Source: an uncultured Pseudomonadota bacterium (GTDB taxonomy: Bacteria; Desulfobacterota; BSN033; UBA1163). Taken from it: a DNA stretch of 36,893 nucleotides. The notes under the pieces are model-generated. The model had not been told where the DNA came from. It worked only from the letters and a program-made list of their open reading frames with translations, and did not search any database. Positions 12,349-32,303 of the stretch are shown in pieces (position 1 is the first letter of the stretch; each line of letters opens with the position of its first letter). Position numbers and translations under genes: made by a program. The DNA is taken from contig CAKZKY010000494.1 of NCBI GenBank assembly GCA_937124575.1, forward strand, positions 1 to 36,893. The letters are read 5' to 3'.

Positions 12349-14355
12349 TCATTTGCTTTTCATCACCCATACATCGTCCCATCTCTCATCAGGGGGGTTA
12401 TCAATAAAATACCTGCACCTTTCGATATAAATTCCCGAAAGACCGTCATGACTGTTTAAAGACAATACCTCTTCAAACTTCTTCATGCTCTCGGCCCACT
12501 TTCTTGATTTATAAAGCTCAAGCCCTTCCCCGAAATAGTCGATCGCCTCTAAGAGATGGGGAAAGGATTGCTCATTATGAAAATCCAAAACCTCATAAAC
12601 AGATACCGGCTGATGCTTCCCCTTGACCTTTATCCTGTCAACCTCGCGAAAGAGATAATTGCCTCTAAGTCTGCCCTTAGTGAATTCACTGATTAAAATC
12701 TTTGAATGATAATACTTGTTTGCCCCTTCAAGCCTCGATGCCAAATTGACCCCATCTCCGATGACCGTATAATCCATCCTTTTCATTGAGCCGATATTTC
12801 CTGAGATCACATAATCCGTATTCACGCCGATTCCAATATCGATGGGCTCCTTCCCCTCCGCAGCCCTTTTGGCATTGAATTCGAAAAGCGCCCTCATCAT
12901 ATCAATGGCCGCTTTAATCGCATTATCTTCATCCTCTCCACTACTGAACGGCGCACCGAATACGGCCAGAATGGCATCTCCTATGTATTTGTCCAGAATA
13001 CCATTGTATTTGAATATGATATCCACCATGATTGAAAAATATTCGTTCAGCATTGAGACGGTATCGCTCGCACCTAACTTTTCAGAGATTGTGGTAAAGC
13101 TTCGGATATCGGAAAATAAAATAGTCGCCTCCTGTAGCTGCCCTCCAAGAACAGCCTCCCCGGTTTCCAAAAGTTTTTCAGCCACCTCTTTCGTCATATA
13201 CCGCGCCATGGTTCCTTTCAGACGTTTTTCCTGCGTGATGTCTTCGAATATTAGCATCGAGCCCATAGACTCTTTTTTCACATTCATTAAAGGAACAATC
13301 GTCATGTTAATTGAGACCGTCTTCCCACCAGGAAGGTCATACTCCGTATCCATGGTAATGTCCGGTATGCCGCTGATCATGACTTGGGTCACCCGATTCG
13401 CAATCCATCCATTTGTGCCTTTAAAAAAATCTGTGGATTTCAGGTCGATCATCTCCTCCGCTCTGACTTGAAAGATTCTAAGCGCTGCGGAATTGCATTT
13501 CACAATCTTGTTATCAGCGTCGAGCGTGATGACGCCGTTACTCATGCTTTCGAGCATGCTCTCGTTATAGTTCTTCATATTTAAAACGTCGTCAAAGAGC
13601 TTTGCGTTCTCTATGGCAATGGATGCCTGCGCCGAAAACGCCCTAAGACGTTTTTCATCGACGGTTGTGAAGGGACCACCCCTTTTATTCAAAACCTGTA
13701 TGATCCCTATGGTCTTTCCCGCCTTATTCATAACTGGCATGCAGAGGATTGATTTCGTCCGGTAACCCGTTTTTTTGTCAACCTCGGGATTAAAACGGGC
13801 GTCCTGATAGGCATCGGGTATATTGACCAGTTCACCGTTGGTAAAAACGAAACCTGCAATTCCCTTGTTGGATGGAATCCGGATTTCCCGGATATCTTCT
13901 CCCTGAGCCACAATTGACCAAAGCGTATCCGTCTTTTCGTCATACATAAAAAGGGTGCTTCGGTCTGCCTCAAGGATTTCAGTCGTTGTTTCCATGATCT
14001 TTAAAAGGAGCGGATAGAGATGAAGTTCCCTCGAAATGGCGGTTGTCACTTCCAGAAGCTGTGACTCCTCCTCCATCGCCTTCTTTATCTGCTCATAAAG
14101 CTGTGCGTTCTGAAGTGCGGCGGATGCCTGAGAGCTGAGCACTTCCAAAAGTGTAATATCGTCCTTTGAAAAATTGCCCTCTTTCTTATTAAGCGCTTGA
14201 AAAACTCCGATAATCTCGTTGTTTCTCGACTTAATCGGAGCACAAAGGATATTTCTCGTGCGATAGCCTGTTTTTTTTGTCCACCTCTTTGTTGAACCGA
14301 GGGTCCGAATAGGCATCGTGAATGATAATCGGCTCACCCTTTGTAAACACTGCAC
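12349..14355 (-). CDS. adenylate cyclase, C-terminal part of a frameshifted gene
   Basis: Continuation of the gene starting at 14893; removing one A from the A8 run at 14271-14278 joins the two frames into an 847-residue protein. In joined numbering this part holds the end of GAF1, a complete GAF2 (about 275-420), a PAS-like domain (about 440-540) and a class III cyclase domain (about 575-750). The cyclase keeps both metal aspartates (FSDIRSF, KYIGDAILAVFG), the Lys/Asp adenine-recognition pattern (LDKYIGD, MKRMDYT) and the Asn/Arg pair (GDGVNLASR), so it should make cAMP. The C-terminal 90 residues resemble one helical TPR-like repeat. The translated residues before about position 30 of this frame are out-of-frame sequence. 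Confidence 0.85.
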   Translation of the reverse strand: MQCLQRVSRLSFTMPIRTLGSTKRWTKKTGYRTRNILCAPIKSRNNEIIGVFQALNKKEGNFSKDDITLLEVLSSQASAALQNAQLYEQIKKAMEEESQLLEVTTAISRELHLYPLLLKIMETTTEILEADRSTLFMYDEKTDTLWSIVAQGEDIREIRIPSNKGIAGFVFTNGELVNIPDAYQDARFNPEVDKKTGYRTKSILCMPVMNKAGKTIGIIQVLNKRGGPFTTVDEKRLRAFSAQASIAIENAKLFDDVLNMKNYNESMLESMSNGVITLDADNKIVKCNSAALRIFQVRAEEMIDLKSTDFFKGTNGWIANRVTQVMISGIPDITMDTEYDLPGGKTVSINMTIVPLMNVKKESMGSMLIFEDITQEKRLKGTMARYMTKEVAEKLLETGEAVLGGQLQEATILFSDIRSFTTISEKLGASDTVSMLNEYFSIMVDIIFKYNGILDKYIGDAILAVFGAPFSSGEDEDNAIKAAIDMMRALFEFNAKRAAEGKEPIDIGIGVNTDYVISGNIGSMKRMDYTVIGDGVNLASRLEGANKYYHSKILISEFTKGRLRGNYLFREVDRIKVKGKHQPVSVYEVLDFHNEQSFPHLLEAIDYFGEGLELYKSRKWAESMKKFEEVLSLNSHDGLSGIYIERCRYFIDNPPDERWDDVWVMKSK

Positions 14356-14893
14356 CCGCGATCCCCAGATGATTAGGAAACCTTATCTCATTGACAAGCC
14401 CCCCTTCGGCAACCCTTGAGAAAAGCTCCCCTGTCTCCTTATCGTTCAGGAAGATGGTGCTTCGGTCTGCGTTCAGAATGTCTGATACAATGGCCACCAT
14501 TCGTTCAAGAAGCCTGTCAATAGAGATAGTATCCGCCAGCCGTTTCGATATGTCGATAAAGGCAGTGATTGTATCAAAGATTTCAGCAACCCTTCCGATG
14601 AACGTCTCCTGCCTCTTTTCGCTCATGGCGGCAAGCATCTTTCTGATGTCTTCCTGTTGAAGCCTATTCTTAAGGATGTGACTGACAATTTCGATGCTGG
14701 TTTCGAGTTTAAATCCACTTCTTTGGACAGAAAGCGCTTTGAAGAGATCCTCTTCTTTTATAAAAAAATCGGTAAGGATTTCACCGAGTCTTCTTCTCCT
14801 CCCCTCAGCACTCTGTATTTGAAGGGCTCTTCTCAGGTCCTCTTCTTTAATATATCCGAGATCAAGAAGTATGTCGCCTATCCTGTCCGACAT
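14231..14893 (-). CDS. adenylate cyclase, N-terminal part (MshEN-like plus GAF1)
   Basis: Residues 1-60 carry two copies of the RLG-x2-L-x3-G-x-I-x4-L-x2-AL-x2-Q pattern (RIGDILLDLGYIKEEDL, then RRLGEILTDFFIKEEDL), the signature of MshEN/GSPII_E_N domains, known to bind c-di-GMP in some ATPases. A GAF domain starts near residue 110. The frame is lost at an A8 run (14271-14278) after EVDKK and ends soon after. The parallel motif in GAF2 (EVDKKTGYRT) is encoded with A7 and stays in frame, showing which frame is right. Possible outcomes are a true null allele, a sequencing or assembly error, or slippage on A8 that yields some full-length protein. Confidence 0.8.
   Translation of the reverse strand: MSDRIGDILLDLGYIKEEDLRRALQIQSAEGRRRRLGEILTDFFIKEEDLFKALSVQRSGFKLETSIEIVSHILKNRLQQEDIRKMLAAMSEKRQETFIGRVAEIFDTITAFIDISKRLADTISIDRLLERMVAIVSDILNADRSTIFLNDKETGELFSRVAEGGLVNEIRFPNHLGIAGAVFTKGEPIIIHDAYSDPRFNKEVDKKNRLSHEKYPLCSD
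14271..14278 (-). other. A8 homopolymer frameshift site in the cyclase gene
   Basis: Eight T on the plus strand (A8 in the mRNA) interrupt the cyclase frame. The equivalent site in the second GAF domain near 13770 has seven. Deleting one base restores one continuous reading frame from 14893 to 12349. Confidence 0.85.
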
Positions 14894-15121: not shown

Positions 15122-16459
15122 TTAAGCATAAGATCTCCGGCCCTCAGAGTGAAGCTCCTCCTTTTTGAAATAGCATTCGGCTTTTTTGACAGCAGGCCAC
15201 AGTCCCAGGTTCATGGGGCCGAAGATGATCAGGCTTCTTTTGAGATGAAATGGATGGAAGATCCTTTTCGCCATCGAAGCAGGGGAATAGAAAGACCGAT
15301 TCACCTTCCAGAAACCTTCTTGAAGCTCCTTCACACTCATCCTCTTCGGCTGAAAGACAACGGTTGCCATATCGTACTTCGACCAGTCCTCGGTAAGAAT
15401 CCTTCCCTCCTGTTTCAACCGATGATAGATCCTCGTCCCTGGAAACGGAGTGAGAATGGGAAGAAAAGCCCCATCGATCCTGTTCCGGTCGGCAAATTCT
15501 AAAAACTCATCAAAGACCGAAACATCGTCATAGTCGTATCCAAAGACAAAGGAAGCATAGACTCCAATGCCTGCATCGTGAAGCCTTTGAATCCCTCTCT
15601 CGTACATCTTCACCCGATTGATTTTCTTTCCCATCAGGTCGAGGTTCTCTTCGCGAAGGCTCTCAAAACCAATGAAAAGTCCGTGGCATCCGGCTTTGGC
15701 CATCAGTGAAACGATCTCCTCATTTTCGGCAACGTGAATCGGCCCCTGGCTGACCCACCGCAGTCGGTATCGGGAAAGCATGCCAAACAGTTCTCTGGCA
15801 TAGGAGAGATTGCCTACCATATTATCGTCTACAAAAAAGATGTAGGCTTTTGAACGCTCAAGCGATTGAATCTCTTTTTCAACCTCAGAGACCGGTCTCA
15901 TCCGGTAGGTTCTTCCATGAAGTGCAGTCACGGAACAGAACTCACAGTCATAAGGACAACCCCGAGTTGTCTGAATCAAATTGTGAAAGAGGTAACCCTT
16001 TGGAGGAAGAAGATCCCTGCGGGCAATGGGAAGCTGACTCAGATCGGTCCGATCCTTCTGTTGATAAAAAGGTTTCAGTTTTCCCATTTCGGCATCTTTT
16101 AGAATCTCCGCCCAGGTCTCATCCGCCTCTCCGATAGCCACCCCATCGGCATGCGCTTTGGCTTCTTCAGGAAGCCAGGAAGCATGGACTCCTCCGATAA
16201 CTACCTTTCTCCCCCTTTTTCTAAACTCATCTGCAATTTCATACCCTCTCGGTGCCAAGGGTGTGATCAGGGTGATGCCGACCAGATCGACGTCTCGATC
16301 AAAATCAATCTCTGAGAGGCTTTCATCGATGATACGAACCTGATGTTGTGGAGGAGTCAGACCAGCGAGGAGGGAAGTGGAGAGGAGGGGAAATTTAAAT
16401 GCGATCACATCCCAAAAACTATCCTTAGGCCATCTGGGAATGATCAAGGAAATTCTCAT
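15122..16459 (-). CDS. B12-binding-domain radical SAM enzyme
   Basis: 445-residue enzyme of the cobalamin-binding radical SAM superfamily. Residues 1-150 are a Rossmann-like B12-binding domain (VDLVGITLITPLAPRGYEIA, then VVIGGVHASWLPEEA) without the DxHxxG lower-ligand motif. The radical SAM core begins at TTRGCPYDCEFCS, whose three cysteines (CxxxCxxC) hold the 4Fe-4S cluster. Family members catalyse methylations, C-C bond formations or cyclisations on unreactive carbons, often in lipids and natural products. It is the last gene of the twelve-gene minus-strand cluster and overlaps the preceding lipoprotein gene by 4 bp. A paralogue is encoded at 30957-32303. The substrate is unknown; a lipid or polyene intermediate is inferred from context. 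Confidence 0.88.
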   Translation of the reverse strand: MRISLIIPRWPKDSFWDVIAFKFPLLSTSLLAGLTPPQHQVRIIDESLSEIDFDRDVDLVGITLITPLAPRGYEIADEFRKRGRKVVIGGVHASWLPEEAKAHADGVAIGEADETWAEILKDAEMGKLKPFYQQKDRTDLSQLPIARRDLLPPKGYLFHNLIQTTRGCPYDCEFCSVTALHGRTYRMRPVSEVEKEIQSLERSKAYIFFVDDNMVGNLSYARELFGMLSRYRLRWVSQGPIHVAENEEIVSLMAKAGCHGLFIGFESLREENLDLMGKKINRVKMYERGIQRLHDAGIGVYASFVFGYDYDDVSVFDEFLEFADRNRIDGAFLPILTPFPGTRIYHRLKQEGRILTEDWSKYDMATVVFQPKRMSVKELQEGFWKVNRSFYSPASMAKRIFHPFHLKRSLIIFGPMNLGLWPAVKKAECYFKKEELHSEGRRSYA

Positions 16460-17157
16460 CTACGTTTGATTCTCCTGAGTAGCCTCTCGAGAGATCTCAC
16501 CTCAACATCTTGTGGAACATGCCACTGAAAGCTCTCTTCAGGTAGAGATGAATTGACAGAAATCCCTTTCAATCGAAGTTCGATGCGGGTTTCCTTCTCC
16601 AACAGTTCGATCTGGATTCGATTCGGAATCTCGTTCCCTTCCTCCTTCTCGGAGGTGATTCGGATCTCCCCTGCCTTTGCCATTACATTCTCATACTGGG
16701 AGAGCTCTCCCCAATAGGCCCTCTTTTGTGGCGGGATGAGGAGGAAGAACTCACCACTTCGGTAAAGAGCATCGAAGAGCCCCATCCCCAAGGGATGATA
16801 GCCGAGGAGCCTCAATCTATCGGGCTTTTGGTAAAGGAGAAATCCATTGAGGAGAAAGTTCATTTCCTCTCCTTCTCGCACTGTCTCAATCCGGATGGAG
16901 GCTCTCGCCTGTAGGGATTCAGCAGCGGAAAAGGTTTCAAGGAGTTTGGCGATCGGATTTTCAAAGGGCGGCCTTTCAGGGGGAATGATTTCAACCTTCT
17001 TCGGACATCCCCAAAGGATAAGTGACAGGAGAAGAAGACTCAAACATGTGTACCAATATCTTTTATCTCCTCTCCGTTTCCCCCTCACCCCATCCCTCTC
17101 CCCCGGGGGGTGAGGGGACAAAAACGGATAAACATATACGTACAATCTGCGAATCAT
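16456..17157 (-). CDS. LolB/LolA-like outer-membrane lipoprotein
   Basis: 233-residue lipoprotein with signal region and lipobox LILWGC (Cys51) followed by a LolA/LolB-type domain (ASIRIETVREGEEMNFLLNG, then YQKPDRLRLLGYHPLG). It probably binds a lipid or lipidated product at the outer membrane. The ATG at 17157 abuts the previous stop and has AGGAG 8 bases upstream. This gives an unusual 28-residue stretch ahead of the hydrophobic core, encoded by a GC-rich inverted repeat (17081-17117). A GTG inside the repeat (about 17088) would give a more normal signal peptide. The gene lies between the desaturase-like and radical SAM genes. Confidence 0.75.
   Translation of the reverse strand: MIRRLYVYVYPFLSPHPPGERDGVRGKRRGDKRYWYTCLSLLLLSLILWGCPKKVEIIPPERPPFENPIAKLLETFSAAESLQARASIRIETVREGEEMNFLLNGFLLYQKPDRLRLLGYHPLGMGLFDALYRSGEFFLLIPPQKRAYWGELSQYENVMAKAGEIRITSEKEEGNEIPNRIQIELLEKETRIELRLKGISVNSSLPEESFQWHVPQDVEVRSLERLLRRIKRR
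17081..17117. repeat. GC-rich inverted repeat inside a gene start
   Basis: CCCCTCACCCC (17081-17091) and GGGGTGAGGGG (17107-17117) are perfect 11-bp arms around a 15-base loop. The sequence resembles the CCCTCACCCC/CCCTCTCCC repeats common between genes in many genomes. Here it encodes part of the N-terminus of the LolB-like lipoprotein. Confidence 0.6.
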
Positions 17158-18648
17158 TTAAAATTCTCCTCTTTCAAATCTGTTCCAGATGGCTTCCGCG
17201 GTCAACTCTCCAGAGGCCACCACTGCAGCAATCCCTCCACCGGGTGATGTCCAGTGTCCTGTTAAAAAGAGATTGGGAATCGGAGTGGTGCGCTGGAGGC
17301 GGTGGATTCCGGATTGGCTCGGAATCTGTGCCCATCCATAAGCTGCTCCTAATTGGTTACCCGTCCATCGCTCAATCGTCTTTGGAGTTGCCTCGGTCCT
17401 CACAAGGATCCTCTTCTTCAAATCAGGAATCAGAACCGATGCCCTCGATACGAGAGATTCAGAAAGTTCATCTATAATCTTTGAGCCCCAACCTTTGCTG
17501 AAATGATAGGGAGCCTTCATGCTCAGGCAAAGGGTGCTCTTACCTGGGGGGGCATGAGAGGGATCGACTCTGGATGGGGCAAGCAAGTAGAAGGGTGCTT
17601 TCTCTGGAATTTGGTTCTCATAAAGGATTTGATACTCTTTAGAGAGCTGATTGTCGAAGAATACTTCGTTATTTGAAACAGGAAGTTCTTCCAAATCCCC
17701 ATCGATTCCAAGATAGAGGATAAAGTAGGAGAGAGAAGGTCTCATCCCATTCAGTTTTGACCGGAAACTGTTTGGGATCCGATCCTTTCCAAGAAGGGAG
17801 TTAAAGGTCTTTTGGGCATCGACGTTGGAAATGATGAGCTTTCCAGTAACCTCTGCTTTGTCCTTTAACCGAATGCCAATCGCCCTCTTCTCTTCCATCA
17901 GAATTTTTTCAACTTCGTGGCCAAGCAAAATCTTTCCCTTTCTCTTTTCAAAAGCCTCTCCCAAAAGGAGCGGAAACCGCTCCACCCTCCCCTTCACACA
18001 GGAGACGCCGTGATCAAAATAGGACATCTCGATCCCTGCCATACCCACCACCGAAATCTCCTCGGGTGGAAGCAAAGCATAAGAACTTCGAACCGAAAGG
18101 ATGGTTTTCACGAATGGATTGGCGATGTATTCATTCAGGAGTTGTCCAAAAGTCTGATCTTTATATCTTAAAAGGAAAGGAATTTGGGAGTTGAGGGAAG
18201 AGAGATCGAACCAGTTAAGCGATGAAGGCATTTGCGAAAACTCATTAAAGATCTTTCTCAAAATCTTATAAACCTGCTCAATGCCTCTTCGCTCCCCTGG
18301 AAACAGACTTGAAAGATATTCGATATGGGTTTCAATCCGAGAGGACTGAACGACCTTCTGATTTGGGAAATGGTATTCCCTTGCCGGTTCCAAGGAAATG
18401 AAGTGAATCTGGTCAAGGAGGTCCAGTTGTTTCAGCAGATTCCAGATTCTTCCACCCTCCTGGCACTCCCCTAATGATTGTACGGAAAGATCAAAAGAGA
18501 AACCCTCTTTCTCGAAAGAAGTACAGCACCCTCCTATCTTCTCATTCTTCTCAACGATTAAAACGTTGAGCCCCTTCTGGGCTAAGAGACAGCCACAGGT
18601 AAGACCTGCCACCCCTGCTCCGATGATGATGACATCCATCTCAGACAT
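17158..18648 (-). CDS. phytoene desaturase-like FAD oxidoreductase (CrtI/RetSat family)
   Basis: About 496-residue flavoprotein. The N-terminus has the dinucleotide-binding fold IIIGAGVAGLTCG (GxGxxG) and the FAD ribose Glu (IVEKNEKIGG). The C-terminus has the second FAD motif (LFLTGHWTSPGGGIAAVVASG) typical of carotenoid desaturases and isomerases. Such enzymes add, saturate or isomerise double bonds in polyenes. Met at 18648 was chosen because it immediately precedes the FAD fold; an upstream ATG at 18705 would add 19 residues of no clear character. In this cluster it probably acts on the chain made by the ketosynthases. A 140-bp gap with a possible promoter separates it from the upstream ketosynthase-like gene. 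Confidence 0.85.
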   Translation of the reverse strand: MSEMDVIIIGAGVAGLTCGCLLAQKGLNVLIVEKNEKIGGCCTSFEKEGFSFDLSVQSLGECQEGGRIWNLLKQLDLLDQIHFISLEPAREYHFPNQKVVQSSRIETHIEYLSSLFPGERRGIEQVYKILRKIFNEFSQMPSSLNWFDLSSLNSQIPFLLRYKDQTFGQLLNEYIANPFVKTILSVRSSYALLPPEEISVVGMAGIEMSYFDHGVSCVKGRVERFPLLLGEAFEKRKGKILLGHEVEKILMEEKRAIGIRLKDKAEVTGKLIISNVDAQKTFNSLLGKDRIPNSFRSKLNGMRPSLSYFILYLGIDGDLEELPVSNNEVFFDNQLSKEYQILYENQIPEKAPFYLLAPSRVDPSHAPPGKSTLCLSMKAPYHFSKGWGSKIIDELSESLVSRASVLIPDLKKRILVRTEATPKTIERWTGNQLGAAYGWAQIPSQSGIHRLQRTTPIPNLFLTGHWTSPGGGIAAVVASGELTAEAIWNRFERGEF

Positions 18649-18649
18649 G

Positions 18650-18690
18650 ATGCATTCAGTATAACATAACCTTTCTTTTGGCGTCGAATA
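18650..18690 (-). promoter_or_regulatory. possible extended -10 promoter before the desaturase-like gene
   Basis: On the minus strand TGTTATACT (TATACT at plus 18658-18663) forms an extended -10 box ending about 9 bases before ATG 18648; the -35 region is poor. If used, the mRNA would be nearly leaderless, which fits the lack of a ribosome binding site there. Confidence 0.3.
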
Positions 18691-18788
18691 GGTTGAGTTT
18701 ACCAAATGGCCTGGTTGATTCTTGAATATATCGGTGGGGAAAACATTTTCGTCCCCAAAGGGAAAATAAGAGGAAGGTGATGCACTAC

Positions 18789-20069
18789 TTAGGGATAGAG
18801 TTTAAACCTGATTGAGATATTTGAGCCTCCATTTGAAGATCCATTGAGCAAGGCAAATCTGATCTTTCTCTTTTCGGGTTGACCCAAAACGATCTTCAAA
18901 TCAGATTGAGGATCAAGACGGGTCGTTCCAATCGTCGGTGGAATGATCCCATGATAGAGGCTCAATGCGATACTGCATGCCCTGATTCCCCCTGAGCCAT
19001 CAAATTCTCCGATCAACGATTTAAGAGCACTGACAGAAATCTCTTTGGCCCTCTCCCCGAAAACCTCTTTAATCGCCAATGCCTCTGCTCGATCGAGATC
19101 AAGGGTTGAATTTGCAGCTGCGGAGATATAATCAACCTGAGAAGGATCTTCGGTAGCCAGGGACATCGCCTTTGCAATCGAATGGCCTTTCTGGTCATAC
19201 CGGAGAACACCGTCTGTGCTTCCTGAGAAACCTACGCCTGCCACTTCTCCGTAAATTCTGGCTCCCCTCTTCTCCGCATGCTCCAATCTCTCCAAGACGA
19301 GGACTCCACTTCCCTCACCCAATACCATCCCATTCCGATCCCGATCAAAAGGCCTCATCCCCTCCAAGCCCTTTTCCTTCCCGGGCGATAAAGCTCCTAA
19401 CCGCGAATAGACATGATAGAGGGGCTCGCTCAATTCATCGCCTCCGCCTGCAAAAATAAGATCTGCTTCACCCTCTCTCAATAGATGGCAGGCATAAGCC
19501 AATGCCATCTCTGTGGATGTCTCTTTGTGGGAAAAGGTGATATTCGCTCCTTTAATCCCATATTCAATGGCGCAATGGCTGGTGATCGCATTGGGCACTG
19601 CGGTCTGGAAGAGAAGGGGCTGGGCTCCTACAGGACCATCCTTTAAGAGGGCTCGAAAGAACTGATCCACTGTATCCGAACTGCCGAGTCCGGTTCCAAT
19701 CGAAATTCCCATTCGTTGGGGATTCTCTTTGCTTAAATCGAGACCCGAGTCATCAATGGCCATCTTAACGGCTGAAACCATGATCTTACCAATCCGATCC
19801 ATCCTTCTAAGATTGGCTGGCTTGATAAAGGTTTTAAAATCAATCTCCGGAAGTTGAGCCCCTAATTTTGAACGGTAAGAACTGACATCAAATCTCATGA
19901 TTGGTTGGACCCCGGATATTCCCAGGAGGCAGTTCTTCCAGAATTCTTCTTTCCCAACTCCAATAGAAGATAGAATTCCAAGACCAGTGATGACTATGCG
20001 ATCTCCCTCTGGAGAGTTCGGAGTTCGGTGTTCGGAGTTAGGATTTATTCCACACAACTTATTATCCAT
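18789..20069 (-). CDS. ketosynthase-like protein without catalytic residues (CLF-like B)
   Basis: FabF-fold protein of 426 residues (RIVITGLGILSSIG at the start of the fold). Aligned by eye with FabF, the nucleophile Cys is replaced by Glu183 (SHKETSTE), the first His by Ala318 (SAAANST) and the second His by Glu355 (KSLIGEFDG). It cannot condense acyl chains in the normal way. Such proteins (chain-length factors or KS-beta) pair with an active ketosynthase and shape the product; the active KS gene is directly upstream (20120-21352), 50 bp away. The N-terminal 23 residues, before RIVITG, are partly encoded by a 7-bp tandem repeat; no start codon closer to the fold is present. Confidence 0.85.
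   Translation of the reverse strand: MDNKLCGINPNSEHRTPNSPEGDRIVITGLGILSSIGVGKEEFWKNCLLGISGVQPIMRFDVSSYRSKLGAQLPEIDFKTFIKPANLRRMDRIGKIMVSAVKMAIDDSGLDLSKENPQRMGISIGTGLGSSDTVDQFFRALLKDGPVGAQPLLFQTAVPNAITSHCAIEYGIKGANITFSHKETSTEMALAYACHLLREGEADLIFAGGGDELSEPLYHVYSRLGALSPGKEKGLEGMRPFDRDRNGMVLGEGSGVLVLERLEHAEKRGARIYGEVAGVGFSGSTDGVLRYDQKGHSIAKAMSLATEDPSQVDYISAAANSTLDLDRAEALAIKEVFGERAKEISVSALKSLIGEFDGSGGIRACSIALSLYHGIIPPTIGTTRLDPQSDLKIVLGQPEKRKIRFALLNGSSNGGSNISIRFKLYP
20014..20041. repeat. 7-bp tandem repeat near the start of the CLF-like B gene
   Basis: Four adjacent copies of GAGTTCG, two perfect and two with one mismatch (GTGTTCG, GAGTTAG), lie between the start codon at 20069 and the ketosynthase fold. 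Related GTTCGGAGT and GTTCGTAGT pieces in the opposite orientation occur at about 20125-20150, at the 3' end of the preceding ketosynthase gene. Confidence 0.75.
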
Positions 20070-20119
20070 TTACTTACCTATTTCCCTGTTAATTTCGATA
20101 TAGATTAATTGTCTCCAAA

Positions 20120-21352
20120 CTACGAACTTCTTGACTCCGAACTGAACTTTTTAAACACCAGACAGACATTATTACCACCAAAAGCAAATGAGTTTGAGAT
20201 GGCTACCCGAACATCCTTTTTGATCGAATGATTTGGCGTATAGTAAAGATCGCAATGGGGATCAGGCACTTCATAATGAATCGTGGGAGGAACGATTCCG
20301 TTCTTTATCGTCAAAACGGTTGCCACAGCCTCAATGCCTCCTGCTGAGCCAAGGCAATGTCCGATCATGGATTTAATCCCGCTGATGGGAATCTCCCTTG
20401 CCCGTTCTCCGAATACCCTTTTGATGCCTCGGGTCTCAGCGATGTCATTAAAGAGAGTGGCTGTCCCATGAGCATTGATCGTATCCACTTCTTCAGGGAA
20501 GACACGGGCATGAGACAAGGCCATTCGGATCACCCTTTCGACACCTTCCCCATTGGGCTCTGGTGCAGTGAGATGGTAGGCATCCGCACAGATGCCATAT
20601 CCGATCAGCTCAGAAAGGATGGGAGCTTCTCTTCTCAGGGCATGCCCCAGTTCTTCGAGAATCAGAATACCCGCTCCTTCTCCGATGGTTAAACCCTGCC
20701 TCCGCTTGTCAAAGGGCTTACAGCTTTCAGGGTCAACCAGTTTAAGACTGCTAAATCCGCTGAAGGAGACCTCACAGAGGGAATCACTTCCACCGCTGAC
20801 CATGATGTCGGCCAGACCCATCTGAATCAGGTCAAAAGCCACTCCGATCGAGGCCGAGCTTGAAGAACAGACCGTTGCCGTGGTTGAACGGGGACCTTTT
20901 AACCCTGACTCGATGGCGATAAGATCGGTCGTTGTAGCAAGAGAGTAAGAAATGAGCAGCGACGGAGAGGGTCTCCCTTTTCCCAGGTAGACATCCCTGA
21001 AATACTTTTCAACCGAAAGAATGCCACCTGAGCCTGCTCCTAAGAGGACCCCTACTCTCCTTTTGTCAATGGAATCCTGGTCAAGCCGGGCGGACCTCCA
21101 TGCTTCCCTGAAGGCAATCAACCCGAATTGGTCACACCGGGAAAGCCTGCGGAGCTCTCTGGCTGTGAAATGGGCAGAAAGATCCAGACCCGAAACTTCA
21201 GCGGCTCTCTTTATCCGATAGGCTGAAGCATCAAAGGCGGTGATTTCCTTTGCTCCATCTTTACCCTGGATGAGGGAGTCCCAGAATTCTGGGACACTAT
21301 TCCCAACGGCACTGACCACTCCCATCCCGGTAATGACGACTCTCTTTCTCAT
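20120..21352 (-). CDS. beta-ketoacyl-ACP synthase, FabF type, catalytically complete
   Basis: 410-residue condensing enzyme that extends an acyl-ACP chain by decarboxylative condensation with malonyl-ACP. The catalytic set is intact: Cys162 (TATVCSSSS), His295 (NAHGTAT), Lys327 and His332 (KSMIGHCLGSAGG). The glycine-rich C-terminal loop (NSFAFGGNN) is present. It is the only fully catalytic ketosynthase of the three in the cluster. It overlaps the upstream lolA-like stop by 4 bp and precedes the inactive partner gene by 50 bp, a KS/CLF-like order. It could be mistaken for housekeeping FabF, but no acpP or fabG neighbour supports that. Confidence 0.9.
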   Translation of the reverse strand: MRKRVVITGMGVVSAVGNSVPEFWDSLIQGKDGAKEITAFDASAYRIKRAAEVSGLDLSAHFTARELRRLSRCDQFGLIAFREAWRSARLDQDSIDKRRVGVLLGAGSGGILSVEKYFRDVYLGKGRPSPSLLISYSLATTTDLIAIESGLKGPRSTTATVCSSSSASIGVAFDLIQMGLADIMVSGGSDSLCEVSFSGFSSLKLVDPESCKPFDKRRQGLTIGEGAGILILEELGHALRREAPILSELIGYGICADAYHLTAPEPNGEGVERVIRMALSHARVFPEEVDTINAHGTATLFNDIAETRGIKRVFGERAREIPISGIKSMIGHCLGSAGGIEAVATVLTIKNGIVPPTIHYEVPDPHCDLYYTPNHSIKKDVRVAISNSFAFGGNNVCLVFKKFSSESRSS

Positions 21353-21996
21353 TTGATCTCTGTCACTTTCACATCCTTTGGAAGTCGAACCTCAACATCA
21401 GAATCCGAAAGCCCGGTATTAATCCTTATATTCGAGTATTGAAGCGTTGTTGTATCTCCATTCCTTTCGACCATCTCCATGCCAGTCATGATCCAATCCC
21501 TCTTTGAGATCCACATCTTCGTCTTAACAAATAGCGGATCTTTCAGCTTCGGGAGTATTTCGATGGCAAGAGAAAACTCTTTCTCCTCAACAATCCTCCA
21601 CTGAGCCAATTTCTCCTGAAAAGGATCCTTTAAGACGATGAGGTATTTCTCGGTGAGGGGATTTCCCTTTATGTGGTATCGTTCTGCCATCTTCTCCTCT
21701 TTGAAATAGAGAAGAACGGTCTTGCCATCGAAGACCATCTGGCTGCTCTCTGGAGGGAAAAATTCAATAAAGAACTTATCCGGTTTTTTAAAACGAACCC
21801 TTCCTCTCGAAATCACCTTCTCCTTAAATAAGGAGATCCTCTTCTCTTGAACAAGATCAGCTGTGAAATCGTTCATCTTCTCGCGGACCTCTCTGATCCG
21901 CCTCACGACCTCGTCCACGCTCAGGGGCTGCGCTTCAACGGAAGTTAAAGGCACGAAAAATGAAAGAGACAAAACGAAAAAAATTATCTTCGTCAT
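21349..21996 (-). CDS. LolA-like outer-membrane lipoprotein carrier
   Basis: 215-residue periplasmic protein with a cleavable signal peptide (hydrophobic to about residue 20, likely cut after VEA). It has the LolA fold pattern: FTADLVQEKRISLFKEKVISRG, then KPDKFFIEFFPPES and later beta-strand repeats. LolA ferries lipoproteins across the periplasm; cluster-associated versions occur in aryl-polyene loci, where they may carry the polyene lipid. It overlaps the ketosynthase start by 4 bp and follows the methyltransferase gene by 6 bp. This copy is probably specialised, because the cluster also encodes a LolB-like partner. Confidence 0.85.
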   Translation of the reverse strand: MTKIIFFVLSLSFFVPLTSVEAQPLSVDEVVRRIREVREKMNDFTADLVQEKRISLFKEKVISRGRVRFKKPDKFFIEFFPPESSQMVFDGKTVLLYFKEEKMAERYHIKGNPLTEKYLIVLKDPFQEKLAQWRIVEEKEFSLAIEILPKLKDPLFVKTKMWISKRDWIMTGMEMVERNGDTTTLQYSNIRINTGLSDSDVEVRLPKDVKVTEIK

Positions 21997-22002
21997 AAAG
22001 AA

Positions 22003-22860
22003 TTACCCTTTAAATCCTAAGATGGTTTTGCTCACTCCCGGAAAAAGAAATTTTGAACCGCTCAGGTAGAAGAGGGCTTCGGAGAGATTCCCAAAAATAA
22101 TCGAGGCGATCTTCTTTCCTGTATCAGGTGGAAGCGTATATCCACCGATCAGGTGCCTCCATTCTTTAAAGCCTCCCCTTTTCAGACACTGCTCGATTAT
22201 TTTAGGGGAAAAGTCAGCCAGATGGGCAGGCAGATCATAGAGGTGATTCTCGATGCCAAAGAAACGGAGAAGGTTTTTAATTGGCGTGGTGTGGGGATAT
22301 CTCAACAGAAGAAGCCCACCGGGTTTAAGGATGCGATAACACTCCTGTAAAAATCCGATTGGTTGAGGAAGATGTTCAATCACATAAAAACCGCTCACAG
22401 CATCAAAATCTTTCTCTGGAAAACCTATTCTCTCCAAAGGTCCCTCATACACGGTTAGTTCCAAAACAGTCCTCGCATACGCCATGGCCTTTTCAGAAAC
22501 GTCAACACCCGCAACCTCCCATCCTCTCCGTTTCATCTCTGCGAGAAAGAACCCAAAACCCGTTCCCACATCCAATAGCCTCCCTCTATTTTTATATTGG
22601 TCTATAATATTGGCGGCCTTCTGGAAGATGGGCTCCATCATCCTCTTCCATGCCTCGATTGAAGATTCATCCTCAGGAAGATATTCCTGATAGAACCGGA
22701 GTATGGCTTCACCGGTTGGTCTCGGGTTGAGATAGATGAATTGGCATGAAGAGCATTTGACCATTTGAAACCGTCCCTCTCTGTGCAGCAGGTTATATTC
22801 CGCCCCTCCACAAATGGGACAGGAAGTTTCCTCCATCTCAATATCTATATTTTCTCTCAT
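22003..22860 (-). CDS. class I SAM methyltransferase with N-terminal zinc ribbon
   Basis: 285-residue methyltransferase. Residues 14-39 form a Cys4 zinc ribbon (CPIC...CSSC), followed by LNPRPT and the SAM-binding motif I LLDVGTGFGFFLAEMKRRG. Acidic motif II (VAGVDVSEKAM) and the post-motif IEHLPQP are also present. Proteins with this ribbon-plus-methyltransferase layout are common next to surface-glycan and lipid genes. It overlaps the upstream methyltransferase by 4 bp. It probably modifies the cluster product on O or C; the acceptor cannot be read from sequence. Confidence 0.82.
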   Translation of the reverse strand: MRENIDIEMEETSCPICGGAEYNLLHREGRFQMVKCSSCQFIYLNPRPTGEAILRFYQEYLPEDESSIEAWKRMMEPIFQKAANIIDQYKNRGRLLDVGTGFGFFLAEMKRRGWEVAGVDVSEKAMAYARTVLELTVYEGPLERIGFPEKDFDAVSGFYVIEHLPQPIGFLQECYRILKPGGLLLLRYPHTTPIKNLLRFFGIENHLYDLPAHLADFSPKIIEQCLKRGGFKEWRHLIGGYTLPPDTGKKIASIIFGNLSEALFYLSGSKFLFPGVSKTILGFKG

Positions 22861-23534
22861 CCGTTACCAGGAATGGATTCGATCCACATCTCGATGGTGC
22901 GGGTGTAAAGTTTCCAGTTCGTTAATTTTGACTGATTCAAAAAGGCGCGGCATTCTTCCAGCGTATAGGAGGAATTGACCGATTCCATAAAGCCTTTTCT
23001 GGCTTTTGGATGTTTTCCGAAAAAGAATCTCCAAAAGAGATCAAAAAGCCCTACCCAGACAAAAGAGGCATCTCTATGGAAATCAACTATAACAAAGCTC
23101 CCTCCGGCCTTCAATGTCCGTGCAACTTCATTGAAAAAGTCAACAGGACGATCCAGATGGTGAAGGGTGTTGGTGCAGAGCAGCAGATCGAGGGATTGAT
23201 CGTCACAAGGAAGTGAGTAAGCAGAACCTACCTGAAACTCAATCTGATCCGCTAAGCCTGCCTCTATCGCATTTTTCCAGGCGATATCAATCATGACCGA
23301 AGATAGGTCAATGGCTCTAAAACGGATCTCCGGAAACGCCTTCGATAAAAAAATGGGAAAAATGCCTGGACCGGTTCCGACATCAAGACAATTCCCTTGC
23401 TGAATCCCTTTTGCCTTAATCCGGCTGAGCACCCTCTGGCAGGGAATCCTCATGTATTTTTTCGCCATGAGGCTGTAATACTCAGCCAGCTCACGGTCTT
23501 CAATGACTCCAGATTCTGATATGCGCTCTCTCAT
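22857..23534 (-). CDS. class I SAM-dependent methyltransferase
   Basis: 225-residue methyltransferase of the Methyltransf_11/UbiE-like type. Motif I is CLDVGTGPGIFPIFLSKAFP, followed by an acidic loop (FRAIDLSSVMIDIA) and the LCTNTLHHLDRPVDFFNEV region. It resembles quinone or lipid methyltransferases more than nucleic-acid ones. It overlaps both neighbours by 4 bp, between the FabZ-like gene and the second methyltransferase, so the product is probably methylated twice. There is no sign of a membrane segment. Confidence 0.82.
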   Translation of the reverse strand: MRERISESGVIEDRELAEYYSLMAKKYMRIPCQRVLSRIKAKGIQQGNCLDVGTGPGIFPIFLSKAFPEIRFRAIDLSSVMIDIAWKNAIEAGLADQIEFQVGSAYSLPCDDQSLDLLLCTNTLHHLDRPVDFFNEVARTLKAGGSFVIVDFHRDASFVWVGLFDLFWRFFFGKHPKARKGFMESVNSSYTLEECRAFLNQSKLTNWKLYTRTIEMWIESIPGNG

Positions 23535-23977
23535 TCCGCTCCCTTTGCTAAGACCACTACCCCCTCCGCCACAAGTCCCTCCCCAACCATAGCCCGTAGT
23601 TTGACTTTAGCGAGATTGGAAAAAAGGCGTTCAATCTCTGCCTGAAGGAGCAGCGAATCGCCAGGAATCACCTTTCCGGTGATGCGAAACTCTTCCACCC
23701 TCGCCAGATAAGGCACCCCCTTCCCTTCCCTTTCAAAAGAGGTATGAAAGGCAAGTCCACCCGTTTGAGCCAATGCCTCCAGGATCAGAACCCCTGGCAT
23801 CACCAGTTCCTTTGGAAAATATCCCTGAAGATAGCATTCATCGGCGCTCACCTGTTTAAGGGCCACAGCCTTTTTCCCAGGCTCGATCTCAATAATTCGA
23901 TCGATCATCCGAAAAGGAAAAGAGTGTGGAAGTTTCTGCAAGATTTCATCGAAATCGATGAGGTTCATGGCATCCAT
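23531..23977 (-). CDS. FabZ-like hotdog protein with altered active site
   Basis: 148-residue single-hotdog protein of the beta-hydroxyacyl-ACP dehydratase family. LPHSFPF (residues 16-22), MPGVLILEALAQ (60-71) and the C-terminal strands are clear. In FabZ the catalytic pair is His in GHFP and Glu in EALAQ. Here the motif is GYFP (Tyr53, codon TAT) while Glu67 is kept. Dehydration may be lost or changed; it could act as an isomerase, a thioesterase-like protein or a structural partner. The start is either Met1 or Met4. It lies 25 bp after the membrane-protein gene and overlaps the methyltransferase by 4 bp. Confidence 0.85.
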   Translation of the reverse strand: MDAMNLIDFDEILQKLPHSFPFRMIDRIIEIEPGKKAVALKQVSADECYLQGYFPKELVMPGVLILEALAQTGGLAFHTSFEREGKGVPYLARVEEFRITGKVIPGDSLLLQAEIERLFSNLAKVKLRAMVGEGLVAEGVVVLAKGAE

Positions 23978-24002
23978 TCTTCAGAGGTTTTTTAAACGCT
24001 CA

Positions 24003-24485
24003 TTAAAAGAGAGAGACTATCTTAAATACTCCTTGGGAGATTCCCATGATGATGAAAATTCCTAAGAGAGAGCCGGTCATCAGGAGGACGGTTCCCTCCA
24101 CCCTTCCTTTCTTTAAAAAGAAACTGACGATGCTTCCCGAAAGGATTCCAAAACCACGGATGGGAAGAGCAGAAAGCAAGATGAGACCAACATTTCCAAG
24201 AGACATCACCTTCTTCATCAGGGGCCTCTCATTCATGGCAGAGATCACCTTATCGGTTTTATGCGTGAGCCACCGAACGACAAAAAATTTCTTGCTCGAT
24301 TGTTCCAACAACATACCATACACAGGAATCTGCACATAATCATAGGCTAAGGCTAAAGGGAAATAGATCAAGGCAGACATCTGATTGAGGATGGCAAAAA
24401 ACACCGAGAAGGAACGACCCAGAGTAAAATGAATCAGAGTAAAGAGGAGGATGAGATTCCCTGTGCCGGTAATTATGGGTTCCAT
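24003..24485 (-). CDS. small multi-pass membrane protein (PF06695-like)
   Basis: About 160-residue integral membrane protein with four to five hydrophobic segments and a basic loop in the middle (SSKKFFVVRWLTHKTDK). The pattern fits the small multidrug-export/COG2426 family (PF06695), whose function is poorly known. ATG 24485 was chosen because GAGG lies just upstream; an earlier ATG at 24515 would overlap the ketosynthase-like gene by 43 bp instead of 13. In this cluster it may help move or anchor the lipid product, which is inference. Confidence 0.65.
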   Translation of the reverse strand: MEPIITGTGNLILLFTLIHFTLGRSFSVFFAILNQMSALIYFPLALAYDYVQIPVYGMLLEQSSKKFFVVRWLTHKTDKVISAMNERPLMKKVMSLGNVGLILLSALPIRGFGILSGSIVSFFLKKGRVEGTVLLMTGSLLGIFIIMGISQGVFKIVSLF

Positions 24486-25690
24486 TCGCACCTCATCAGG
24501 ATAGAAGAATAACATTCTCCAGGCGATATCCCCAGGTGGATGAGAGTCCTTAGTTTCAGATCCAATGTTTGATGAGTGACATAGCGAAGATCACAAGCAG
24601 GATCTGGAAATTGATAATTGACCGTTGGTGGGACGAATCCATACTCCATGGAAAGCGTGTTCGCTACCATTCTTATCCCACCCAAGGCAATCGCTTCTCC
24701 CACCATCGATTTAATTGAACTGATTGGAATCTGAAAAGCTCCGGAGGGAAACGCCTTTTTGATCCCTTTGGCTTCTAACTCATCCAAGATTTTAGATGAA
24801 TTTCCAGCACCGCTGATATAATCAATCTGGATATTCTCTCGACCTCTCATTGCCAATTGGATTGATCGGCTGATTCCTTCCGATTCTTTCTCTTTTAAGG
24901 ACCGCCCTACCAATCCATACTCCAAAATATAACCGTAAATCTTTGCTCCCCTCGATCGGGCATGCTCCTCTGATTCAATCACCAACACCCCTGCTCCCTC
25001 TGCTAAGATCAATCCGTTTCTCATCAAATCATAAGGGCAGGATCTCTCCCCATGTCCTTGATCCTTGGCTAATAAATTTAAATCAGAAAATCCACGAAAC
25101 AGAAATTCACTCAGTTCATCCACTCCGCCTGCGAGAATAAGGTCAGCTCTCCCATTTCGGATTTGATCGCAGGCAAAGATAATGGCTGCCTCAGCGGTAC
25201 AGAAGGACTGCACGAGTGTGCAATTGACTCCCTGAATGCCAAGTTCAATGGAAACATGGCTTGAGGCCGCGTTTGGGACGGTGTTTGGAAAAAGCATCGG
25301 ATTGAGGTCTAAAAAACCTCTTAAGACCTGCCCTCGATGGAACTCCTCTGAGCTGGAGAGTCCGCAGAATCCCGATCCCAAAACGACCCCCACTCTTGAG
25401 CTATTTTCTCGGGTGACTGAAAATTGTGCGTCAGAAAAAGCTAATTTCGATGCGGCAATGGCAAATTGGCTTGCCCGATCCAATCGTCGGATCTTACTGG
25501 CAGCCATAAAATCTTTGGGATGGAAGTTTCGTACCATTCCAGCCTGTTGGGAACGAGAAAAGGATGTGTCGAAGGTTTGGATCTTCTCAATGCCTGATTT
25601 TCCTACCCTCAGACCCGAGAGAAATTCTTCCTTCCCAATTCCGATCGAAGAGACAACCCCCACCCCTGTGATGCAAATTTGTTTACTCAT
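24473..25690 (-). CDS. ketosynthase-like protein without catalytic residues (CLF-like A)
   Basis: 405-residue FabF-fold protein starting [17 protein letters not shown]. In an ungapped alignment the nucleophile position is Phe163, with a Cys one residue later (QSFCTAE). The two histidines are Ala295 (SGAGNSS) and Glu332 ([12 protein letters not shown]), while Lys327 is kept. It therefore looks like a second, independent KS-beta/chain-length-factor-like protein, although the displaced Cys164 leaves some doubt. ATG 25690 overlaps the acyl-CoA dehydrogenase stop by 8 bp and has GAGAAGG upstream; the more upstream ATG at 25738 is less likely. The stop overlaps the membrane-protein start. Confidence 0.82.
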
Positions 25691-26912
25691 AGACCTTCTC
25701 TTCTTCGCCTTCGAGGTCTCCGGCATCCGCCTCCACATCTCTCGCTTCGCTGATCTTCCCTAAGACCTCCTTATAGAATTCGTGCTGGATGAGAAGATTC
25801 ATCACCTCATTTGTGCCAGTCCAGATCATCTGAAGCCTGGCATCCCGGAAGAAACGTTCGATGGGATACACATTCGTATACCCGATCCCTCCCATCACCT
25901 GCATCGAGTGGTTGACGACCTCCCAGAGCATCTCTGTGGAAGTCTTCTTCGCCTCAGAGACCATCCGTCTTGCATCCAGGCCTTCATCCACGTGCCTGGC
26001 TGTCACATAAACGAGACTTCGAGCCGCATCCAGCTTGGCGATCGAATCAGCGATCTTAAAGCTGACCGCTTCAAATTTTCGGATCGTCTCCCCAAATGCC
26101 TTTCTCCGGTTGCTATATCGGGTTGCAATCTCCAGACAGCACCTCGCCATCCCAAGGGCTCCGGCTGCAGTCGTTAACCGCTCAGGGATCATCATCTGAT
26201 TGAAGACCAGAAACCCACCATGGAGCGGACCCACAAGGTTTTTGGCCGGTACTTTAGTATCCCGAAAATAGAGCCTGCCGGTCCCTCCTCCACGGGAACC
26301 CAGTAGACCGTAAACATGTTTAACCTCTACACCCATCTTCCTTTCGACGATGAAACAGGAGATCGATTTATGAGGTTCTGCCTCAGGTGCTGTCTTGGCA
26401 TAGACGATAAAATAGTCCGCTCCTTCTGCGCCCACCACAAACCGTTTCTGGCCATTGAGTAAATAATAATCGCCATCTTTTTTAGCGATGGTGGTGGCAC
26501 CAAAAAAGTCCGATCCTCCCCGCGGCTCGGTCAGCGCCTCTGCACAACAGAGCTTTCCCTCAAGGGTGGGCTTCAGATATTTCTCTTTTTGTTCTGGAGT
26601 GCCAAAACGATGGATTGCTTCACCACAGATGCTTACCAATGAGTAGAGACAGGTCATCCCCGATCCAAGAACACCAATCTCCTCAATGGCCGCCACCTCT
26701 CCGGTCCATTTCATCCCTCTGCCTCCCCATTCTTTGGAGAAACGAAGACCAAGAAGGTTCTGGGCAGCGAGGCTTTCGATGAATTCCTTCGGATACTTCA
26801 CCTCATCAGCATCCATGGCCCGAATAAGGGAACTCGGAACCTTCTCTTTAACGAATCGTCTGACCTCATGTTTTAACTCCCGTTCTTCATGCGTCAATAA
26901 GATTTCGAACAT
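25683..26912 (-). CDS. acyl-CoA dehydrogenase family flavoprotein
   Basis: 409-residue FAD enzyme that introduces an alpha-beta double bond into an acyl thioester. The N-terminal helical, middle beta and C-terminal helical domains are recognisable ([49 protein letters not shown]). The catalytic base is Glu369 in WTGTNEVMN. The last 20 residues form an unusual acidic tail. A strong ribosome site, GAGGAGGAGG, precedes the start. It is the first gene of the minus-strand cluster, so it may desaturate the growing or starter acyl chain, possibly on ACP rather than CoA. Confidence 0.9.
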
Positions 26913-30956: not shown

Positions 30957-32303
30957 ATGAAGATTCTTCTCATCTCACCAGAGCGAGAGAGGAAGAAAGA
31001 GGAAGCCTTCCTTTTCAGGCTCGGGTTTTTGAATCTTCCCTATGTGGCGGCCGTGACTCCTCCAGACATAGAGGTCAAAATTGTTGATGAAGCCTTTGAG
31101 AAGATCAATTTTGAGGAGAAAGTGGATCTGGTGGGTCTTACAGCCCAGACCCCCTCAGCTCCTCGGGCCTACCAGATCGCTGAAGAATTCAGAAAGAAAG
31201 GGGTTCCCGTTGTCATCGGAGGAGTCCATGTCAGCACACTTCCCGACGAAGCGCTTCAACACGTTGATACAGTCGTGATCGGCGAAGCCGAAGAGATCTG
31301 GCCTCAACTGATCGAAGACTTCAGAAGGGGTGAGATGAAACGAATCTATCAGGCTGACGGGTTTGTCAACGCCTCTCAACTTCCCTTACCCCGAAGAGAA
31401 TTACTCAATGAAAAATTTTACTTTCCACTGAAGTTACTCGAAACAACCCGAGGATGTCCTCATCACTGCGATTTCTGTGGGGTTTCAAAATTTTTCGGTT
31501 TTAAATACCGCAATCGGCCTATTGCTGAGATAGACAGAGAGCTTGCAACTCTCTTTTCAAAAGGCCCTGTGGTGAACCATTCGCTGAAGAAGATCCTCTC
31601 ACTGGTGAGCAAAGATCTTCCCTACTTTCTCAAGAAGAGACTTCTCTATATCATTGACTCCAATATCGCAGGCGATAGGTGCTTTGCCCTCAACCTGCTG
31701 GCCCTTCTGGAGGAATATGACCTTCTCTGGTATGGCCATGCTCCGGTCTCCATCGCCTTTGATACACAACTTTTGTCAGGTTTTTCAAAAAGCGGATGCA
31801 TCGCCATCAACATCGGCTTTGAATCCTTTTCGCTAAAAAATCTAAACATCATGGGTAAAGGATTCAACAAACCCTCTAAATATGCTGAAGCCGTCGAAAA
31901 GATTCATGACCATGGCATTGGCATCATGGGAACTTTCATGGTTGGCCTTGATGACGATGATCCTGGAGTCTTTCAACGGATCATTGACTTCTGTAATGAT
32001 TCGAAGCTCGATTGGGCGCTCACCTTTATCATGGCGCCTTACCCAGGAACGGAATCTTATTTAAGGCTGGAACGGGAAGGAAGGATCTTCTCCAGGGATT
32101 GGGAGAAGTATGACTCGCTTAATGCCGTCTATCAACCTCTCCTGATGACAGTGGAGGACCTTGAAAAGGGGATGAGGAAGATTTGGAAGGAGGTCTTTTC
32201 GCTCCCTTCGATCTTTAAGAGAATACTGAAGAGACCCTGGATTCACCCCCTCTTCTATCTGACCATGAATTTACAATTTCACCATTTGACAAAAAAATGG
32301 TAA
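30957..32303 (+). CDS. B12-binding-domain radical SAM enzyme (paralogue)
   Basis: 448-residue paralogue of the enzyme at 15122-16459, with the same order: B12-binding-like domain (DLVGLTAQTPSAPRAYQIAE, VVIGGVHVSTLPDEA) and a radical SAM core with TTRGCPHHCDFCG (CxxxCxxC). The two share long stretches such as GIG-(I/V)-followed glycine motifs and the SRDWEKYDSLNAVYQP/TEDWSKYDMATVVFQP C-terminal region. This copy has an insert of about 25 residues after the first core strands (NHSLKKILSLVSKDLPYF). The B12-binding domain lacks DxHxxG. The substrate is unknown; pairing with the FabG-like gene next door suggests lipid chemistry. Confidence 0.86.
   Translation: MKILLISPERERKKEEAFLFRLGFLNLPYVAAVTPPDIEVKIVDEAFEKINFEEKVDLVGLTAQTPSAPRAYQIAEEFRKKGVPVVIGGVHVSTLPDEALQHVDTVVIGEAEEIWPQLIEDFRRGEMKRIYQADGFVNASQLPLPRRELLNEKFYFPLKLLETTRGCPHHCDFCGVSKFFGFKYRNRPIAEIDRELATLFSKGPVVNHSLKKILSLVSKDLPYFLKKRLLYIIDSNIAGDRCFALNLLALLEEYDLLWYGHAPVSIAFDTQLLSGFSKSGCIAINIGFESFSLKNLNIMGKGFNKPSKYAEAVEKIHDHGIGIMGTFMVGLDDDDPGVFQRIIDFCNDSKLDWALTFIMAPYPGTESYLRLEREGRIFSRDWEKYDSLNAVYQPLLMTVEDLEKGMRKIWKEVFSLPSIFKRILKRPWIHPLFYLTMNLQFHHLTKKW

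Follow-up and report, generated by a model that had tools for sequence, protein, structure and literature searches.

What product does a run of twelve same-strand genes encoding ketosynthase folds, methyltransferases, a flavoenzyme and lipoprotein-type carriers serve, and do these genes suffice for it? The question is raised by positions 15122-26912 of a stretch of 36,893 nt (hereafter, the window), contig CAKZKY010000494.1 of assembly GCA_937124575.1, from an uncultured bacterium (GTDB Desulfobacterota; BSN033; UBA1163). This block (locus A) is probably one of three dispersed loci that, judging from the encoded proteins, would form a dedicated type II polyketide/fatty-acid pathway building a lipid moved to the outer membrane; the second (locus B, or locus 2) and the third (locus C) lie elsewhere in the window's genome (G000, of family f1). 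By analogy, the best reading is that an aryl-polyene-like type II polyketide synthase (PKS) chassis would be combined with anammox-ladderane-like tailoring to give an outer-membrane lipid.

Sequence and synteny revealed a set of parts that travel together across Desulfobacterota families, some merged in single clusters: pairs of ketosynthase (KS) and chain-length-factor (CLF)-like proteins, acyl carrier protein (ACP), acyltransferase (AT), ketoreductase (KR), FabZ, thioesterase (TE), LpxL-like acyltransferase (LPLAT), B12 radical SAM proteins (rSAMs), two methyltransferases, CrtI-type flavoenzymes, MMPL, LolA and a LolB-like protein. The strongest evidence comes from G046 (family f27, 100% complete), in which a run of about 13 kb joins parts of loci A and B in the order polysaccharide deacetylase, GT2, SPASM rSAM, LPLAT, ACP, rSAM, rSAMb, AT, rSAMc, KR, KS2, KS-A, FabZ, LolA and LolB. 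As parts of both loci sit in one cluster there, the two loci are read as one pathway. One rSAM of this run is 45% identical to that of the window, rSAMc belongs to TIGR04072 (397 bits) and KS-A keeps its characteristic Phe. G046 thus offers a minimal single-locus version that is open to expression or study.

The twelve genes of the window

All twelve open reading frames (ORFs) are present, and are given below in their 5′ to 3′ order with the basis of each assignment.

25683..26912, minus strand: ACAD, acyl-CoA/acyl-ACP dehydrogenase, a loosely attached member (Pfam and active-site comparison)
24473..25738, minus strand: KS-A, ketosynthase fold, chain-length-factor-like (Pfam; active-site alignment)
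24003..24515, minus strand: MEM, small membrane protein, PF06695 (Sm_multidrug_ex), adjoining KS-A in f1 and f12 (Pfam)
23531..23977, minus strand: FabZ-type 3-hydroxyacyl-ACP dehydratase (129.2 bits against a cutoff of 113)
22857..23534, minus strand: MT1, class I SAM methyltransferase, UbiE-like (Pfam and NCBIfam-type profile matches)
22003..22860, minus strand: MT2, class I SAM methyltransferase with an N-terminal CxxC...CxxC motif (Pfam)
21349..21996, minus strand: LolA-family periplasmic carrier, second copy in the genome (Pfam)
20120..21352, minus strand: KS-B, putative partner of KS-C, a ketosynthase whose Cys/His/Lys/His active site is intact (Pfam; active-site alignment)
18789..20069, minus strand: KS-C, chain-length-factor-like, adjoining KS-B in f1, f2, f21 and f25 (active-site alignment)
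17158..18705, minus strand: CrtI-family flavin desaturase/isomerase (Pfam)
16456..17157, minus strand: LolB-like outer-membrane lipoprotein with lipobox LILWGC (predicted structure matches; no Pfam match)
15122..16459, minus strand: cobalamin-binding rSAM with a DUF4070 tail and CxxxCxxC (profile matches below cutoffs)

The ORF check and profile searches bore out the twelve same-strand genes and the family assignments of the original prediction. Its description of them as mostly overlapping by 4-13 bp applies to four 4-bp overlaps (FabZ/MT1, MT1/MT2, LolA/KS-B and LolB/rSAM), but the remaining junctions are either gaps of 0-83 bp or larger overlaps, which become shorter with the start codons used by orthologues. 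The cluster had also been credited with its own carrier proteins, which is correct for LolA but not for an ACP, which is absent from the cluster and has a dedicated gene in the second locus. No KR, AT or exporter was found among the twelve genes either. The notion of a self-contained twelve-gene pathway is therefore not supported, as the ACP, KR, AT, KS-A partner and exporter sit in the two other loci.

Regarding start codons, KS-A probably begins at the methionine of MSKQIC, about 48 bp inside the annotated ORF, and CrtI probably nearer MSEMD (its orthologues begin MCYT..IM). The annotated 5′ end of KS-C (about 20 codons, 20010-20069) resembles a short repeat element, and that of the LolB-like gene (about 30 codons, 17100-17157) is a probably non-coding element resembling repetitive extragenic palindromes (REP); these ends carry a CCCCTCACCCCCCGGGGGAGAGGGATGGGGTGAGGGG palindrome and repeated CCGAACTC. 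The true start codons of both genes are therefore probably downstream.

Among the tailoring proteins, ACAD keeps a Glu at what we take to be the isovaleryl-CoA-dehydrogenase-type base position (PER) and has none at the medium-chain acyl-CoA dehydrogenase (MCAD)-type position (WTGT); because this Glu is kept, ACAD is predicted to be probably active. A carotenoid role of CrtI was rejected, since no phytoene/squalene synthase (PF00494) was found in six genomes (the window's and five related ones), implying that its substrate is something else, most simply an acyl chain. The window's rSAM is near the BchE/HpnJ/HpnR/PhpK-type families and falls below every cutoff, scoring only 71.7 bits against TIGR04072. 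Cobalamin rSAM enzymes have precedents for both methylation and ring closure (HpnR, BchE). Neither MT1 nor MT2 had a close relative in the PDB or could be clearly linked to AmxMT1.

The transport proteins were assigned in part by structure. The AlphaFold model of the LolB-like protein (predicted local distance difference test, pLDDT, 72) matches LolA 2w7q (E 3.6e-9), LolB 3wjv, 9rlg and 1iwm, and its G046 relative (29% identity) passes the Pfam LolB cutoff. The housekeeping LolA is encoded separately, at G000:C270.

Ketosynthase pairs and the two other loci

Seven active-site positions were read by alignment to E. coli FabF. KS-B has C/H/T/T/K/H/E, with the catalytic residues kept. KS-A has F/A/N/S/K/E/R, in which Cys is replaced by Phe, the first His by Ala and the second His by Glu, Lys being kept; KS-C has E/A/N/T/K/E/R, in which Cys is replaced by an invariant Glu and the two His again by Ala and Glu. 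The window had been said to encode three FabF types; three ketosynthase folds are indeed present, but the active site is intact in only one of them, and the set amounts rather to one and a half KS/CLF pairs. Among the ketosynthases of the pathway, Cys-His-Lys-His is kept only in KS-B and in KS2 of locus B, and the Phe of KS-A (motif QxFC[ST]AE) and the Glu of KS-C are kept across families. Owing to the lost catalytic residues and the conserved Phe or Glu at the nucleophile position, KS-A and KS-C look like chain-length factors, which suggests that the non-canonical FabF proteins act as such in two pairs.

The missing partner was found in other families. The intact KS2 is encoded directly upstream of KS-A in seven genomes, six of f12 (G031, G068, G272, G160, G103 and G132) and one of f25 (G044), as well as in G046, so that the window holds one KS/CLF pair (KS-B:KS-C) and half of another. 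From adjacency and lost residues, we infer two KS/CLF-like heterodimers, KS2:KS-A and KS-B:KS-C. The best PDB match of KS-B is chain B of 9s5h (4e-112, 43% identity), a two-chain 3-oxoacyl-ACP synthase deposited as 9s5h/9s5i. As chain C carries V/N/Y/G/K/E/Q at the seven positions, identical to the published row for Kuste3606, 9s5h/9s5i appears to be an anammox KS/CLF complex; no publication on it was found in the open-access literature searched. Because the ketosynthase tree does not separate the active ketosynthases, and KS-B is not placed as sister of 9s5h chain B, common descent of KS-B:KS-C with the anammox pair is plausible and not established by the tree.

The second locus, on contigs C384 and C180 of G000, has the order LPLAT-ACP-AT-TE-rSAM-rSAM-rSAM-KR-KS2, in which the AT is FabD-like, the thioesterase YbgC-type, the rSAMs of the B12 kind and the KR FabG-type. 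This order recurs in relatives whose contigs are longer, and upstream these encode GT2, a SPASM rSAM, two DUF2229 proteins and a BcrA/BadF-type activase; in G031 a DUF2229 gene lies directly upstream of KS2:KS-A. Such DUF2229/HGD-D-like proteins and the activase stand beside the second locus and the KS2:KS-A operon (L088 7152-10243 and L092 9057-10088), which hints that the pathway includes a low-potential reduction driven by ATP. The third locus, seen in G004, G007 and G008, comprises MMPL, a second CrtI and a B12 rSAM. MMPL directly follows CrtI-LolB-rSAM in G031 and the LolB/rSAM pair in G044; in G000 its gene is in fragments on contigs C88 and C59.

Related KS and CLF-like pairs also occur outside this system, at L196 6665-12377 (G034, Glu type) and L128 (G263). 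The G034 pair has two AMP-binding ligases downstream and possibly marks a further, unnamed cluster type.

Conservation, co-occurrence and the proposed route

Most genomes of the window's genus and of a sister genus carry KS-C orthologues with 74-83% identity, and others with 47-63% identity are found in four other families. A KS-C scan of public species genomes gave 23 loci, 22 of them from metagenome-assembled genomes (MAGs), almost all labelled Deltaproteobacteria, Syntrophaceae or Thermodesulfobacteriota, and the remaining one a 31% match in Millisia. The carriers are little-known, mostly uncultured relatives of sulfate reducers. The neighbourhood comparison called for by the original prediction confirmed conserved co-occurrence: the genes stay together in the same order in many relatives, and in close relatives wherever contigs are long enough. 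In several relatives, unrelated genes intervene between KS-C and CrtI, from which two adjacent operons (ACAD to KS-C and CrtI-LolB-rSAM) are deduced. The intervening genes (sensor kinase, FecR-like, NUDIX and others) were rejected as pathway members because their content varies by genome. ACAD orthologues are 88-93% identical within the family, two genes intervene between ACAD and KS-A in G008, and ACAD is absent upstream of KS-A in f12, f25 and f27. This split of the block and the loose attachment of ACAD would suit a chance run of unrelated operons, which is nevertheless scarcely credible, since the same parts re-associate in varied arrangements in distant families and the merged arrangements of G046 and G031 contradict it.

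In f12 (L039-L044, L091, L130), KS-C stands apart from KS-B, often beside an AMP-binding protein; in L039 a single protein combines an AMP-binding domain with a lipoyl-ligase-like one (PF21948). The lone KS-C of L039-L044 was considered as a separate pathway and rejected, as KS-B and KS2:KS-A occur elsewhere (L091, L092) in G031, the f12 genome checked.

Co-occurrence, called with E-value cut-offs set by the analyst, links the dispersed loci. Of 58 relatives, 14 have both KS-C and the locus-2 AT, 6 have only one of the two and 38 lack both (Fisher p 3e-8). With the window's family left out, KS-C occurs with AT (p 0.003) and with MMPL (p 0.003), and AT with MMPL (p 0.0002).

On the reading of loci A, B and C as one pathway, the AT would load malonyl on the dedicated ACP, and the two KS/CLF heterodimers would extend the chain, in which KR and FabZ would create double bonds. 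No gene annotated in the pathway loci was recognised as an enoyl reductase, so that, by type II logic, the chain would stay polyunsaturated. CrtI, and perhaps ACAD too, would adjust or add double bonds, and the methyltransferases and B12 rSAM enzymes would methylate the chain or close rings in it. Release of the chain and its attachment to a (glyco)lipid may then fall to the thioesterase and the LpxL-like acyltransferase; MMPL would export the product and LolA would pass it to LolB in the outer membrane. The predicted delivery from the inner to the outer membrane is thus supported by a putative module of LolA, the LolB-like protein and an MMPL encoded elsewhere in the genome.

Several points weigh against this pathway. 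The p-values ignore kinship, the f1 genomes being close kin and three f2 genomes belonging to one genus. G012 has KS-C without the locus-2 AT, and G013, G021 and G022 have AT without KS-C, of which draft gaps may explain some. G046 has no KS-C at orthologue level, so not every part is obligatory. The putative heterodimers are deduced from gene adjacency and residue loss, not from the structure of a complex. The missing enoyl reductase applies to the loci only, and a housekeeping enzyme could act in trans.

The FabF- and FabZ-like enzymes would also fit an accessory fatty acid synthesis (FAS) set whose products would be membrane fatty acids of an ordinary unsaturated or branched type, or polyunsaturated hydrocarbons such as the C31:8-9 hydrocarbons of Desulfotalea (PMC2649909). 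This alternative is quite unlikely: such a set would not call for an ApeE-type ACP of its own, a duo of CLF-like proteins, LolA/LolB/MMPL or B12 rSAMs, G000 has a separate canonical FAS locus, and the distribution is sporadic, a KS-A query (E<=1e-80) matching 26 of 395 genomes of the phylum, including some KS-C cross-matches.

Aryl polyenes, ladderanes and the nature of the product

Both analogies drawn in the original prediction, to aryl polyene (APE) loci and to ladderane-type clusters, hold up in shared parts, the ApeE-type ACP, a TIGR04072 rSAM and gene order. The APE locus of E. coli CFT073 (NC_004431, 1143727-1158294) has in common with the present loci an ApeE-type ACP, KS/CLF plus a second KS, KR, dehydratase, YbgC-type thioesterase, acyltransferase, LolA, MMPL exporter, outer-membrane lipoprotein and methyltransferase. 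The APE-type transport module of LolA, MMPL and outer-membrane lipoprotein is therefore present, its MMPL being encoded apart from the other two in the window's lineage. At 51% identity, the second-locus ACP is closer to E. coli ApeE than to the canonical ACP of its genome (24%), and it passes the PRK09184 cutoff (75.2 bits, cutoff 70). In contrast to CFT073, the present system has no fused GT2-acyltransferase and has two CLF-like types (Phe, Glu), a FabD-like AT, CrtI flavoenzymes, ACAD and several B12 rSAMs, and is divided among three loci in the window's lineage.

These common parts would be expected of an aryl polyene (or flexirubin/xanthomonadin) locus, whose product is a pigment with an aromatic starter, ester-linked to a lipid and fixed in the outer membrane. 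Such an assignment is unlikely. No AMP ligase was found among the annotated genes of the three loci in f1 (one stands beside KS-C only in f12), and no ammonia-lyase was noticed among the loci genes, no genome-wide search having been made; CrtI, ACAD, the FabD-like AT and at least four B12 rSAMs have no APE counterpart; and BLAST of the LolA/LolB proteins against APE LolA/DUF3261 gave no match. The best NCBIfam match of the cluster LolA is flexirubin LolA2 (LolA2_flexi, NF053544) at 74.8 bits, below the cutoff of 125, and membership in a flexirubin cluster was rejected on this ground.

The candidate ladderane clusters of Kuenenia stuttgartiensis (kuste2802-2805, 3335-3352 and 3603-3608) and the related Desulfotalea loci share with the present system a canonical KS followed by a non-canonical KS, a phytoene-desaturase-like protein and an rSAM gene, as well as FabZ, ACP, FabG, SAM methylases, a glycosyltransferase, a polysaccharide deacetylase (in G046) and a TIGR04072 rSAM. 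In Kuenenia, kuste2804 is a FabF with 2805 (Phe163), and kuste3606 has Val163 (PMC2649909 Table 2); the order kuste3605 FabF, 3606, 3607 desaturase and 3608 rSAM (PMC4790861 Table 2) is paralleled here by KS-B, KS-C, CrtI, (LolB) and rSAM. Likewise, KS2:KS-A, with Phe at position 163, parallels kuste2804:2805. The CLF-like residue differs, being Glu in KS-C and Val in Kuste3606, and the LolA/LolB/MMPL module and LpxL-like acyltransferase are found here and not in the published anammox gene lists compared.

These parallels, together with the third rSAM of locus 2 (rSAMc), which at 401.9 bits clears the curated 360-bit cutoff of TIGR04072 ('rSAM_ladder_B12, lipid biosynthesis'), raise the possibility of a true ladderane pathway outside anammox bacteria, which is very unlikely. 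Ladderanes are known only from anammox bacteria and were not found in Desulfotalea despite its related loci (PMC2649909), and expression of kuste3603-3608 in E. coli yielded no ladderane (PMC4790861). The TIGR04072 cutoff is also exceeded in Desulfobacterota without KS-C, e.g., G024, G034 and G051, and LolA/LolB/MMPL indicate the outer membrane.

The product of the favoured outer-membrane lipid pathway may be a polyene or bear rings, as the original prediction proposed. A more specific version, in which the pathway makes a ring-bearing lipid (a ladderane-related or otherwise polycyclised acyl chain) placed in the Desulfobacterota outer membrane, and in which the anammox genes are one branch of a wider aryl-polyene-derived family, is doubtful and put forward tentatively. 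Contrary to the original prediction, the kind of cluster is not undescribed: related loci are on record from anammox bacteria and, as anammox-like loci, from Desulfotalea and Geobacter (PMC2649909), and 'ladderane' calls have been made in Desulfobacterota MAGs (PMC9902471). The open-access literature searched held no description of two CLF types, an ApeE-type ACP, LolA/LolB/MMPL and a TIGR04072 rSAM in one split pathway. How ladderanes are made is an unsolved question of long standing, and the candidate genes have been difficult to test for want of pure cultures of anammox bacteria. Here, the enzyme kinds that are ladderane candidates (a KS with a dead partner KS, a CrtI-like protein and a TIGR04072 rSAM) stand beside an aryl-polyene-type ACP and outer-membrane delivery.

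Elsewhere in the window, another B12 rSAM gene (30957-32303) lies beside a cytochrome c assembly protein and glutamyl-tRNA reductase; it has the same place in G004 and G008 and is probably unrelated to the cluster. At 12349-14893, two minus-strand ORFs overlap in different frames; GAF domains are encoded by both and an adenylate/guanylate cyclase domain by the second, and the two possibly represent one gene with a frameshift. A deoxyhypusine synthase family protein (PF01916, E 9e-91) is encoded at 4482-5531 in this bacterium.

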